From assembly GCA_944381535.1 (NCBI GenBank), contig CALWLN010000143.1, positions 1 through 36,653 on the forward strand: 36,653 nucleotides of DNA. Direction: 5' to 3'. The position numbers and the translations under genes were made by a program. The notes beneath the pieces were generated by a model, which saw only the letters and a list, made by a program, of their open reading frames with translations, was not told where the DNA came from and searched no databases. Below, one piece after another: positions 1 through 3,422 of the stretch. Each line of letters opens with the position of its first letter. Position 1 is the first letter of the stretch. The stretch is from an uncultured Lachnospiraceae bacterium. Its GTDB lineage: Bacteria; Bacillota; Clostridia; Lachnospirales; Lachnospiraceae.

Positions 1-455
1 ATCACGCTCTTGATCCCGGCGCGGTTGATACAGCCAATTTTCTCCAGCGTGATGTCAAAACTGCCCGGCCTGCGAAACCAATCGTGGGTTTCGCGCATCC
101 CATCCAGCGAGAGCTGATACTTTTCACAGCCGTATGCCTTCAGCCGGCGGCATACCTGATCGTCGAGATGATAAGGGTTGCCAAGGATGGTGAACGGCAG
201 GTCGCGCTGCTACATCTGTTCCAGCAGCTTCCAGAAATCTGGGTGCAGAATCGGGTCGCCGCCGGTGATGTAGAAGTAGGGCAGGCGGTTATAAACTTTA
301 CAGAAATCAAGGCAGTTGTAAAAGGTGTCCTGCATCTGCTGCCAGTCCATGGAATCCAGCTTTTTGCAGTTGTCCTCCGAGAAGATGTAGCAGTGCTTGC
401 ACCGCTGGTCGCACTCATCGGTGATGTGCCATTGAAAAGAAAAATATTGTTTCAT
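1..455 (-). pseudogene. radical SAM peptide maturase (ACGX-repeat type), 5' part, interrupted by an in-frame TAG; runs off the window edge
   Basis: The minus-strand frame from the ATG at 455 starts MKQYFSFQWHITDEC and carries the radical SAM CxxxCxxC motif (Cys15, Cys19, Cys22) that binds the 4Fe-4S cluster used to cleave S-adenosylmethionine. A typical GGDPILHPDF segment follows. Codon 82 (210-212) is TAG. Past it, the same frame stays open to base 1 and still reads like the family (LPFTILGNPYHLDD, then KYQLSLDGMRETHDWF), so the only lesion visible here is this stop. The C-terminal half, where SPASM-type clusters would lie, is outside the window. The gene lies 106 bp downstream of the Cys-rich peptide at 562-696 on the same strand, so the likely role is to modify that peptide. 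The TAG could be a real nonsense mutation, a sequencing error or a recoded codon; the sequence alone cannot decide. Confidence 0.8.
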
Positions 456-561
456 CTTGTCTGACCTCGCTTATCGTATATAAAAATCGGATTGACCGAG
501 TAGCATTTCGTAGGTTCCCGGCGAAGAAAACCTACCGTGAGCCGTTTTTGGGAAGAACGCC

Positions 562-696
562 TTATTTGTCGGCTGCGCCGCAGGCAGAGCCACAGGCCGC
601 AGGCTTCTCGTCCGGTTTGTCGGTTGCGCCGCAGGCAGTACCGCAGGCGGAAGCCGCTTTTTCTTCGTTCCATCCCGATAAATTAGAAAGTGCCAT
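562..696 (-). CDS. ACGX-repeat peptide, candidate RiPP precursor (44 aa)
   Basis: The frame starts at the ATG at 696, eight bases after GGAGG (RBS at 701-709 on the minus strand), and ends in TAA. The peptide begins MALSNLSGWNEEKAAS and then has two Ala-Cys-Gly-X pairs, ACGTACGA and ACGSACGA, separated by TDKPDEKPA. The four cysteines are residues 18, 22, 35 and 39. I recall short peptides with this repeat being encoded beside dedicated radical SAM proteins in Lachnospiraceae, and the gene at 1-455 fits that role. By analogy with other Cys-rich radical SAM substrates, the product may carry thioether crosslinks from the repeat cysteines; this is inference. A longer overlapping frame (452-673) is an artefact of the repetitive GC-rich codons. 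No exporter or protease gene is visible within the window. Confidence 0.85.
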   Translation of the reverse strand: MALSNLSGWNEEKAASACGTACGATDKPDEKPAACGSACGAADK

Positions 697-993
697 GTCT
701 GTTACCTCCGTTTCTGTATTCAGTGAGTTTTTTTGCTCTCTGTACCTATCATTTTACTGACTTTTTTTGGAGCTGCAAGTACGCACTTTTTTGTGCCCCA
801 GTTACCTTTGGGTGACTTTTGCGCTGTTAGGCGGTCTGTGGCTTGCTGTCTGAACTGTTACCTTTTTGAAAGAAAAAATTAAAATTCTACGAATCATAGA
901 GTGACTTTTCAACTTGCAGCTATTATACTATAGGAAACGAAAAATAAATTTGCCATTTACGATAGCTGTCAGAAAGTATAGGGAGGCGATGAA
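697..993. other. divergent intergenic region between the ACGX peptide and the XRE gene
   Basis: About 300 bp, AT-rich, with no supported gene. It contains the peptide RBS, a short hairpin GCAC-TTTTTT-GTGC (782-795), an imperfect palindrome GTTACC-TTTG-GGTGAC (801-816), a second GTTACCT at 857, and TGACTTTT repeated near 757, 813 and 902. I could not find a convincing consensus promoter for the peptide on the minus strand. These motifs may be regulator sites, but nothing proves it. Confidence 0.4.
901..929 (+). promoter_or_regulatory. predicted promoter of the XRE-membrane regulator
   Basis: GTGACT (901-906), a 17-bp spacer and TATACT (924-929) lie about 60 bp before the start codon at 994. 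The -35 matches consensus at 4 of 6 positions and the -10 at 5 of 6. Confidence 0.5.
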
Positions 994-1949: not shown

Positions 1950-2990
1950 TTAGAAGGGACGAATATCTTTTGCGAGGCTATAGTAGATAATATTTCCGGG
2001 ATTTGTTTCTATATAAGCACGTTCCTGGTGCATATATTTTACAATATCGGGAGCGTTAAAGTTTCGAAATTTATCAATTACCAAATCAAGAGTTTTTATT
2101 TCAGCTTCGGACAGGAAGGCCATGTTCAGCTTTGGGTTGGGAAGAAAATGGTAGCTGGTATAATCATACCCTTCTTCTTTTTGTACATTGATATTCTCCA
2201 GATTCATCATACTATAGTGCCCGACAGGAAGTGCTCCCATTGCCTCATGGCGGTATACCAGTCCGGTCATGGACATGCCTGTGGATTTGAAAAAAAGGAC
2301 ATCTCCATACCATAACAATTTCATCATTTTTACTTTATGCAGATTGGCTATGTGTCCGGCGTAGTAGGACAGAATATATTCGATTTTATCAATGTCAAGG
2401 GTTTTATAGCCGTTAGCGTCAGAAGGCTCGGAAAAATGGACATATTCGCTTTCCAAAGCCTGGCGCTTAAGGAACTCTTTTCCGTAAGAATCTAATTTTT
2501 CTTCCAGATTCGCACGGATCTGCATTCTTTTGGAATCGGTAAATTTATCTCTGTTTTTGTCTAAAAGTTCAATTGCTTTCAGAGGATTCGCCTGAATGAT
2601 TCTCAGCATGTTATCATAGGCTTCATCCTGGATGGATTTGCTTTCATATCTGGCGACGGTTGCCTCGCCCCAGTCTAATAATTTGGCTAAATCCACTTGG
2701 GATAAGCCGTAGCTTTCACGGATTCTTACAATTTCATCAGAAGTCAGAAGGTGATGGACGGTGCGGTAGGCGTTTCGTGCCGCCGACAAATTTGCGTTCA
2801 CCATGCTTCCGGTCTCGAATTCATTTTCTTCTTCAGCGCAGTTGCGGCATAAAAAATATCTTTCTTTATAAGAAACTTTTTCACCTTTTATGGTGAGCGT
2901 TGCGATTCTTTCTCTTTCTTCGAGTTCATGGGTCTTGTCGCATAATGGACAATCCATAGGAACCTTTTTTATTAATTTACTGGCTGTCAT
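1950..2990 (-). CDS. antitoxin with MqsA-like zinc finger, XRE HTH and Panacea/SocA-like domain
   Basis: A 346-residue protein with three parts. Residues 14-51 carry CPLC and CRNC pairs (Cys14/17, Cys48/51), as in the YgiT/MqsA N-terminal zinc domain. Residues about 80-135 are an XRE helix-turn-helix (RIRESYGLSQVDLAKLLDW, then ATVARYESKSIQDEAYDNML). Residues about 205-320 resemble the Panacea domain (DUF4065, SocA-like), including a KLLWYGDVLFFK segment and a YRHEAMGALPVG segment. Panacea domains are known in antitoxins that neutralise varied toxins. The gene is 24 bp downstream of an MqsR-like toxin gene, in toxin-first order. AAAGGAGA before the ATG supports the start. The HTH probably represses the operon through the palindromic promoter at 3436-3490. 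Confidence 0.8.
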   Translation of the reverse strand: MTASKLIKKVPMDCPLCDKTHELEERERIATLTIKGEKVSYKERYFLCRNCAEEENEFETGSMVNANLSAARNAYRTVHHLLTSDEIVRIRESYGLSQVDLAKLLDWGEATVARYESKSIQDEAYDNMLRIIQANPLKAIELLDKNRDKFTDSKRMQIRANLEEKLDSYGKEFLKRQALESEYVHFSEPSDANGYKTLDIDKIEYILSYYAGHIANLHKVKMMKLLWYGDVLFFKSTGMSMTGLVYRHEAMGALPVGHYSMMNLENINVQKEEGYDYTSYHFLPNPKLNMAFLSEAEIKTLDLVIDKFRNFNAPDIVKYMHQERAYIETNPGNIIYYSLAKDIRPF

Positions 2991-3014
2991 AACTGTCTCC
3001 TTTCCCTGTGACCG

Positions 3015-3422
3015 TTATGCATATGGAAATGTCATTTCTTTCTCTGCATAGTGGAAGGACAGGCACAAGATATATTTGTTTTCCGTTCCCTTGATTTTGA
3101 TTTTAATATACACTTGCCTGGAATTGATATCTTTGCCAAAGACGAAAAGTAACGGTGGCTTGTCATCATCCCGGTCAAATAAAGTCTCTGAGTATTCCCG
3201 TATTGTTAATTCCTTCAGCCTCTGTACAATATCAGTTGTGTCGTATTCAAGATCTGCCAGAGTGTAAGGGGTAGAAAACTGTTCCTTTTCCTTTTTGGTT
3301 TTTATTATGATAAAGTTCTTGTCTATGCTAAAATTTTTATCATTCAAAATAGTATTTAGGTTTTTTAAGAATTCCGCAACCATTTTTTTGTCGGATTGTA
3401 TACGAACCTGTATGGCGTTCAC
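3015..3422 (-). CDS. MqsR-like toxin, first gene of a toxin-antitoxin operon
   Basis: A 135-residue protein. The C-terminal 80 residues align by eye with the MqsR pattern: a short helix (LADLEYDTTDIVQRLKEL), an acidic/aromatic turn (REYSETL), then strands VYIKIKIK and ILCLSFHYAE, comparable with VYLKITV and LIVSFKE of E. coli MqsR. MqsR proteins are RelE-fold endoribonucleases that cleave mRNA; catalytic activity here is inferred. The start is GTG at 3422 with AAGGGGAGG immediately before it, giving tight spacing; the next candidate, ATG at residue 14, has no obvious RBS. It is the first gene after a consensus promoter inside a perfect palindrome. The partner antitoxin has an MqsA-type zinc finger, which strengthens the call. 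A RelE/HigB-type toxin is the alternative. Confidence 0.65.
   Translation of the reverse strand: MNAIQVRIQSDKKMVAEFLKNLNTILNDKNFSIDKNFIIIKTKKEKEQFSTPYTLADLEYDTTDIVQRLKELTIREYSETLFDRDDDKPPLLFVFGKDINSRQVYIKIKIKGTENKYILCLSFHYAEKEMTFPYA

Follow-up and report, generated by a model that had tools for sequence, protein, structure and literature searches.

What would a bacterium of the family Lachnospiraceae do with a peptide of 44 residues, four of them cysteines, that is encoded beside a radical SAM enzyme? The window, by which we mean the whole stretch of DNA analysed here (36,653 nucleotides), is the entire contig C143 of the source genome G000, and the two genes lie at its very beginning, at what appears to be the promoter end of an operon. 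A preliminary description, made from the letters, had proposed that a radical SAM gene neighbours the gene of an ACGX-repeat peptide. That pairing stands. An in-frame TAG in the maturase gene and its truncation by the contig end had gone unnoticed, as had a curated NCBI family with gene names and the absence of the usual HxlR regulator from the window locus. Also missed was the neighbourhood that tells most about function, which lies beyond the contig end and is visible only in relatives. The features of the locus are as follows.

1..455, minus strand: AcgM, radical SAM/SPASM maturase, first 151 codons only (TIGR04340 match and sequence)
456..561, minus strand: spacer between peptide and maturase genes, with stem-loops in many relatives (spacer alignment and folding)
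465..468, minus strand: Shine-Dalgarno GAGG of the maturase gene (sequence)
482..498, minus strand: second stem-loop CGGTCAATCCG with a T-rich run, kept in the window (alignment and folding)
514..523, minus strand: remaining 3' arm of the first stem, CGCCGGGAAC, the 5' arm being changed in the window (alignment A4)
562..696, minus strand: AcgA, ACGX-repeat precursor peptide, 44 aa (TIGR04341, 46.8 bits, and sequence)
705..709, minus strand: Shine-Dalgarno GGAGG of the peptide gene (sequence)
751..756, minus strand: -10-like TAAAAT (by eye)
773-778, minus strand: -35-like TTGCAG, 16 nt from the -10-like box (by eye)
777..786, minus strand: putative operator core GTGCGTACTT, lying 80 nt upstream of the ATG and over the -35-like box (conservation in relatives)
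801..816, minus strand: second conserved element GTCACCCAAAGGTAAC, GTYAC-N6-GTRAC (conservation in relatives)

The small gene proposed at 562-696 is borne out. Its 44-codon frame was compared, as had been suggested, with the NCBIfam ACGX-repeat peptide profile TIGR04341, which it matches end to end (positions 1-65) with a whole-protein score of 46.8 bits and an E-value of 3.5e-12, above the threshold of 28 bits. A leader-like MALSNLSGWNEEKAAS is followed by two repeat units, in which the two ACGX pairs described earlier can be read as ACGTACGA and ACGSACGA. The residue at +4 is another Cys for two of the four cysteines and Asp for the other two, giving C-G-x-x-C-G-x-x-D twice. The ribosome-binding site, which had been called ideal, is the GGAGG 8 nt upstream of the ATG. 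Judged from these matches, 562-696 is a real ACGX-repeat peptide gene.

Relatives were collected by searching the first 81 residues of the maturase against 84,980 species genomes, which found 543 relatives, and the analysis went on with the best 80 of them. The counts of loci given below therefore describe close relatives, and some of the 80 loci are nearly identical to each other. The comparison of neighbourhoods, also proposed earlier, places the peptide frame before the maturase gene in 70 of the 73 loci with more than 600 nt upstream. The overlapping frame 452-673, in contrast, runs through the peptide gene without a stop in no more than 7 of 71 relatives; we rejected that frame as a coding candidate and agree that it is a shadow. 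The three loci with room for the peptide and without it are L061, L087 and L110. L087 keeps the repeats and lacks the usual leader, and L110 shows nothing by the patterns used. Upstream of position 8001 in L061 (Mediterraneibacter glycyrrhizinilyticus An427) the leader is kept and the repeats are lost, unlike in L062, which has a similar leader.

Co-conservation with the radical SAM gene, named at the outset as a check of the peptide, was followed in 397 genomes of the same family. The peptide was found at E 0.001 in 50 genomes, with 48 above the cut-off, and the maturase at 1e-60 in 55. Both are present in 48 of the 57 genomes with either (Fisher p about 1e-51); of the others, seven show the maturase match alone and two the peptide alone. 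One of these two, G618, has an end-damaged peptide and a SirTM gene with no maturase between. In L037 (439-1689), an end-damaged ACGX peptide lies directly before SirTM, and the interval holds only a ferredoxin-like remnant and no maturase. Carriage by phages was not seen, a search of 50,697 records having yielded nothing at 1e-30; 4 of 72,556 plasmid records matched, two of them versions of one, and all four are called non-mobilizable.

The pair is not new as such, since it is curated by NCBI as a predicted RiPP system (TIGR04341/TIGR04340) with gene names, acgA and acgM, in the public record; many gut bacteria carry this predicted pair. The window agrees with this system in a peptide above the TIGR04341 cut-off and a maturase whose best match is TIGR04340, and differs from it in that the maturase is broken and cut. 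The preliminary description held that the mature product is not established. This agrees with our search of open-access full text, from which the subscription literature is mostly absent: no paper was found that names ACGX, be it with 'radical SAM' or by the family names.

The neighbouring gene has the radical SAM motif C-x3-C-x2-C ascribed to it, and it aligns at 131.6 bits with positions 1-78 of the ACGX radical SAM/SPASM family, TIGR04340. This family is also the best match of the maturase fragment. The maturase frame meets TAG at 210-212, reads on in phase beyond it and is cut off where the contig runs out, at base 1 of the window. With its one TAG and the contig end, the window maturase scores 258.4 bits over positions 1-148, and it misses the 400-bit cut-off of TIGR04340 because it is broken and cut. 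Many relatives have an intact maturase, with scores above 400 bits in 50 of the 397 family genomes. In an alignment of 28 relatives, 164 of 391 columns are invariant, including C15, C19, C22 and C260..G268-x4-C273 as well as C309-x2-C312-x5-C318-x2-C321 and C339. All 28 thus combine C-x3-C-x2-C with SPASM cysteines, the pattern of a SPASM radical SAM maturase; the window holds the first part only.

Against the window piece of the maturase gene, dN is 0.06-0.13 and pS 0.53-0.94 in 13 comparisons, and dN/dS is 0.04-0.08 in the three of them with a computable dS. Recent horizontal transfer was considered as the cause of the high maturase identity and rejected, since synonymous sites are well diverged while dN is low, which indicates constraint. 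By this measure, the maturase is under strong constraint and the window copy is without sign of long relaxation. Such conservation bears on a simple explanation of AcgA, namely that it is a plain metal- or thiol-buffering peptide for which the radical SAM step is minor. The Cys content (about 9%), the stress-type neighbours and the variable length (30-142 aa in 71 relatives) would suit a buffer. The explanation is nevertheless improbable in view of the invariant columns and low dN/dS of the maturase and of the joint presence of both genes in 48 of 57 positive genomes.

The chemistry that AcgM may perform can be approached from the repeats. Across 72 peptides, the one of the window and those of 71 relatives, Gly follows Cys in 477 of 478 cases. 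In the 70 distinct peptides, 12% of whose residues are Asp or Glu, Cys occurs in 259 runs with a spacing of four; 243 of them end in Asp or Glu at +4 of the last Cys, and 52 of 55 single-Cys units have Asp or Glu at +4. The ranthipeptide-type acceptor motif Cys-Xn-Asp/Glu is thereby present in the ACGX peptides, and it is retained where the intervening residues have changed, as in CGSID and CGAPD. Exceptions at +4 include an Ala in the middle unit of Roseburia acgA. A more distant case is a plasmid of the archaeon Methanosphaera sp. ISO3-F5, on which a 57%-identical maturase, annotated as two genes, is accompanied by an HTH gene and a zinc dehydrogenase. Its 85-residue peptide, which has no TIGR04341 match and is taken as the precursor because of its place and repeats, has all seven Cys as C-G-x-E. 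This archaeal ACGX-like locus is L204, 6673-8025.

The best solved sequence matches of the maturase are SkfB, two cytosylglucuronate decarboxylase entries and 5wgg, which we take to be CteB. An AlphaFold model of the maturase (mean pLDDT 69.7) recovers general radical SAM/SPASM folds only, with BlsE, SkfB, SuiB and anSME first. According to PMC9413430, PapB links Cys to the beta carbon of Asp or the gamma carbon of Glu in Cys-X3-Asp/Glu and accepts other spacings. Since C-x3-D/E is the motif cross-linked by PapB, a Cys-to-acid thioether is our first-choice chemistry, and the best solved match, SkfB, being a thioether maker, points the same way. The freyrasin system (PapA-PapB; PMC9413430) is alike in its repeated Cys-X3-Asp/Glu and in a SPASM maturase of similar size. 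It differs in that the ACGX maturase is only distantly similar, the Cys pairs are of the form C-x3-C-x3-D, and the operon is of redox type. The maturase of L079 scores 64.7 bits against NF047865 (PapB), below the cut-off of 340.

The same locus and role could be combined with another change at Cys-Gly, for example to a thio(seleno)oxazole. The second-best NCBIfam family of the maturase, and the closest other one over its full length, is SbtM (157.6 bits, far above the PapB score), which, going by its name, would be concerned with thio(seleno)oxazole formation. The maturase being nearer to SbtM than to PapB, an SbtM-type change is the main chemical rival. The Gly after Cys is more constant than the acid, 7 of 7 in the archaeal peptide included, and the Ala at +4 in the Roseburia middle unit counts against the thioether. 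However, an SbtM-type change leaves the acid at +4 in 243 of 259 Cys runs unexplained, together with its persistence in CGSID and CGAPD and in the archaeal C-G-x-E, and we consider it unlikely. The thioether remains the chemistry assumed below.

The control of the operon is suggested by the region before acgA. The sequence GTGCKTACTT, to which the putative operator core conforms, is found before the peptide gene in 64 of 70 relatives, at 72-90 nt from the ATG in 58 of the 64; elsewhere in the same loci there are six matches in 1.75 Mb on both strands, and in the window it occurs once. The second element, GTYAC-N6-GTRAC, is found in 51 of 70 relatives, against two matches elsewhere in the same 1.75 Mb, both strands. 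A scan of the whole genome G000 with the operator pattern, whose spacing was mis-set, gave seven matches against five for the reversed control and carries no weight. The core also occurs in 2 of 30 SirTM loci with no ACGX in the sequence examined, before SirTM or HxlR/Macro-SirTM (L159 and L162).

An HxlR-type repressor gene lies upstream of acgA and divergent to it in 56 of the 66 loci with room, and 61 of 63 HxlR proteins have a Cys 10 residues before G-x-K-W. HxlR and DUF24 denote one group of regulators. The N-terminal Cys of YodB and CatR senses quinones, and their regulons include nitroreductases and quinone reductases (PMC6798810). By analogy, we infer that the HxlR protein binds the putative operator and senses quinones likewise. 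The likeness to the YodB/CatR/HypR (DUF24) regulons lies in a redox-sensing repressor with a conserved Cys set over nitroreductases and quinone reductases (PMC6798810); the difference is that we found no open-access paper joining these regulons to SirTM and radical SAM.

Clustering of the neighbours, together with family searches, shows one recurrent operon in these best 80 of 543 loci. The following counts refer to genes downstream on the same strand in the 52 loci with more than 5 kb downstream. Some redox enzyme is present in 51 of 52, some of the nitroreductase matches behind this figure having only 22-28% identity. A PNPOx-ferredoxin protein is found in 35, a zinc-type quinone oxidoreductase in 20, and nitroreductases in 11 and 27, according to which of two query proteins is used. 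SirTM is found in 39 and not found in 13; the Zn-macrodomain is found in 28, always with SirTM. Among all 80 loci, five downstream clusters (SirTM, PNPOx-ferredoxin, nitroreductase, macrodomain and zinc dehydrogenase) occur in 32-47 each, and the other seven clusters seen in at least three loci occur in 3-8 each. On a complete plasmid of Roseburia sp. 831b the locus begins with HTH, acgA, acgM and a nitroreductase and continues with 4Fe-4S, protein-ADP-ribose hydrolase, Sir2 and DUF1848 genes, as annotated by others.

Against PDB 5a3a, an entry filed under the SIR2 family and presumably the SirTM structure of the 2015 study, the SirTM scores 247 bits. Its QG, a hallmark of the SirTM class (PMC4518038), is invariant in 10 of 10. 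The Zn-macrodomain has 272 and 265 bits to 8rsi and 5kiv and lies above the cut-off of NF003163, protein-ADP-ribose hydrolase. Nine of nine sequences keep both C...H-x-C, in which C, H and C probably bind the zinc, and D-x3-H, a motif described in PMC11490716. The arrangement of the extended SirTM class, a QG SirTM beside a Zn-macrodomain, is thus found in relatives and absent from the window.

Some smaller genes accompany these. DUF5131 or DUF1848 genes stand at the SirTM end of the operon in 8 and 4 of 80 loci, respectively, and also in Roseburia (examples: L139, 12598-13704; L135, 10032-10976; L203, 12001-12942). An AAA/DUF4143 ATPase gene is found downstream in three loci (L139, 11336-12607, with a Pfam match; L142, 3817-5043), and by eye a similar ATPase lies beside a SirTM remnant in the genome of the window.

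The company of acgA also bears on whether its product is secreted, as a bacteriocin or a signalling peptide. A RiPP precursor beside a SPASM maturase invites this idea, the closest solved sequence, SkfB, is a bacteriocin maturase, and the repeats could be cut into several copies. However, the recurrent downstream clusters are SirTM and redox types. No peptidase was recognised among the downstream clusters in at least 3 of 80 loci, four of the seven rarer clusters being judged by eye, and a cluster that looks by eye like an ABC transporter occurs in only 3 of 80 loci, with no other exporter seen to recur. The repeats are moreover near-identical and the regulator is of redox type, so that secretion is quite unlikely. 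Since no peptidase or exporter was seen to recur among these genes, the product is probably retained inside the cell.

We favour, with a little more confidence than doubt, AcgA/AcgM as an HxlR-controlled system making an intracellular thioether peptide for redox stress, a carrier resembling GcvH-L, of which the window holds a decayed or misassembled copy. In intact relatives, the divergent HxlR, with its conserved N-terminal Cys, would sit on the operator and leave it under quinone, electrophile or thiol stress. AcgA would then be produced along with the SPASM radical SAM enzyme AcgM, whose most likely action is to link Cys to the acid in each C-x3-D/E unit by a ranthipeptide-type thioether, while the other Cys of each pair would stay a free thiol. 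The product would probably act as an intracellular redox carrier or scavenger, served by the oxidoreductases of the operon much as lipoyl-GcvH-L may be. Where SirTM and the Zn-macrodomain are present, they may switch AcgA by reversible ADP-ribosylation of acidic residues.

The analogy rests on the SirTM operon of Lactobacillales and Staphylococcaceae (PMC4518038, PMC11490716). In its classical extended form, a GcvH-L carrier is lipoylated by its own LplA2, often beside two oxidoreductases, and SirTM and the Zn-macrodomain switch GcvH-L by ADP-ribosylation, with links to oxidative stress (both sources). In streptococci and staphylococci, lipoyl-GcvH-L probably serves to carry or scavenge redox equivalents. 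The ACGX operon shares with the SirTM operon a QG SirTM, a Zn-macrodomain, oxidoreductases and a small protein that bears thiols and is modified by a dedicated enzyme. It differs in that AcgA/AcgM replace GcvH-L/LplA, the oxidoreductases are of other families and the regulator is HxlR. GcvH-L/LplA genes were not recognised in downstream clusters of at least 3 of 80 loci, judged partly by eye, nor are they annotated in the Roseburia locus.

PMC11490716 describes Zn-macrodomains of lone pairs that do not demodify GcvH-L and act on Glu/Asp-ADP-ribosylated PARP1. GcvH-L is there the only known SirTM target, and its authors state that the targets of other SirTM/Zn-macrodomain systems are unknown. 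The similar operon plan, the Asp- and Glu-rich AcgA and the Glu/Asp-active macrodomains lead us to propose AcgA as a carrier and possibly as a SirTM target. That AcgA is a SirTM substrate, replacing lipoyl-GcvH-L in Lachnospiraceae and Oscillospiraceae, is put forward tentatively, as a rather unlikely but serious candidate.

The distribution of SirTM is relevant here. A match to the SirTM model is present in 45 of 50 genomes with the peptide and in 170 of 347 without it (397 genomes, p 1.2e-8). SirTM lies within 8 kb on the same strand in at least 28 of the 55 genomes with a maturase match, a lower bound, since only 45 SirTM places, picked by eye, were compared and weaker matches have no listed place. 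Up to 187 of the 215 genomes with a SirTM-model match are accordingly without a SirTM shown near an ACGX maturase, and some of the 215 matches may be other sirtuins. Given the 13 of 52 loci where no SirTM was found, and the up to 187 genomes that do not show it by an ACGX maturase, the peptide cannot depend on ADP-ribosylation. Redox enzymes accompany the peptide more constantly, which makes the redox role firmer than ADP-ribosylation.

The new aspect of the system appears to be its setting, with a divergent HxlR, a conserved operator, oxidoreductases, SirTM and a Zn-macrodomain. No open-access paper was found with SirTM and 'radical SAM', or with any three of sirtuin, macrodomain, radical SAM and HxlR, and 'radical SAM' does not occur in the available parts of the SirTM-operon papers PMC4518038 and PMC11490716. 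If the proposal holds, RiPP chemistry and reversible ADP-ribosylation would meet in one redox-stress switch, a predicted RiPP family would gain a likely internal stress function, and a target would be named for some, at least, of the SirTM/Zn-macrodomain pairs that lie outside the lipoyl operon. The ACGX peptide, which has SirTM close by in 39 of 52 loci and shares operator and oxidoreductases with it, is a ready candidate target from common gut bacteria.

The spacer between acgA and acgM may add a further level of control. In 22 aligned spacers chosen from 71, two stem-loops comprise 15 pairs, 8 of them with compensating two-sided changes. The first 90 nt fold with z below -2 in 55 of 69 spacers and no better than -2 in 14 (mononucleotide shuffles), and no more than 26 of 71 spacers show the pattern of the second stem. 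The window copy has a weakened first stem (z -1.0) and keeps the second. A likely use of these predicted stems is to provide more precursor than maturase.

How much of this applies to the window itself is a separate matter. No match to the HxlR, oxidoreductase, macrodomain or SirTM of the ACGX operon was found within the window. Elsewhere in the genome, contig C35 has a quinone oxidoreductase (76% to that of L079) and a Zn-macrodomain as a pair preceded by the same operator core; about 1.6 kb away lies an HxlR that shares 57-58% identity with that of L079. SirTM is represented by a C-terminal remnant only, on contig C142. Contig C43 has an HxlR remnant, with no operator core or other operon gene in the 6.5 kb examined around it. 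The peptide is absent from three of six genus members.

The in-frame stop and the missing usual HxlR mean that the window copy may not work. That it is a mere remnant, the family being read correctly while nothing here functions, has in our judgement a slight edge. The TAG, the lack of an HxlR match in the window, the altered first stem and the SirTM remnant agree with this, and radical SAM frames shorter than 335 aa that end inside a contig are seen only in L075 and L084 among the best 80 of 543 relatives. Genus mate G667 has a clearly broken copy, while the locus of genus mate G340 is nearly complete, with a partial HxlR match. On the other hand, the peptide frame, operator and promoter are intact, the maturase has diverged without excess amino-acid change, and a single stop near a contig end could be an assembly error. 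The window thus probably shows a scattered, decaying version of the locus, with an assembly error as the alternative for the stop.

Two further observations concern the DNA next to the locus. At 994-1869, in the position of the divergent HxlR of relatives, lies a gene for an HTH_3/XRE-type regulator with a hydrophobic tail. Beyond it, 1950-3422 is perhaps a toxin-antitoxin-type pair, made up of an MqsA-like/SocA-Panacea antitoxin-type gene (1950-2990, minus strand) and, upstream of this, an ORF of 135 aa (3015-3422, minus strand).
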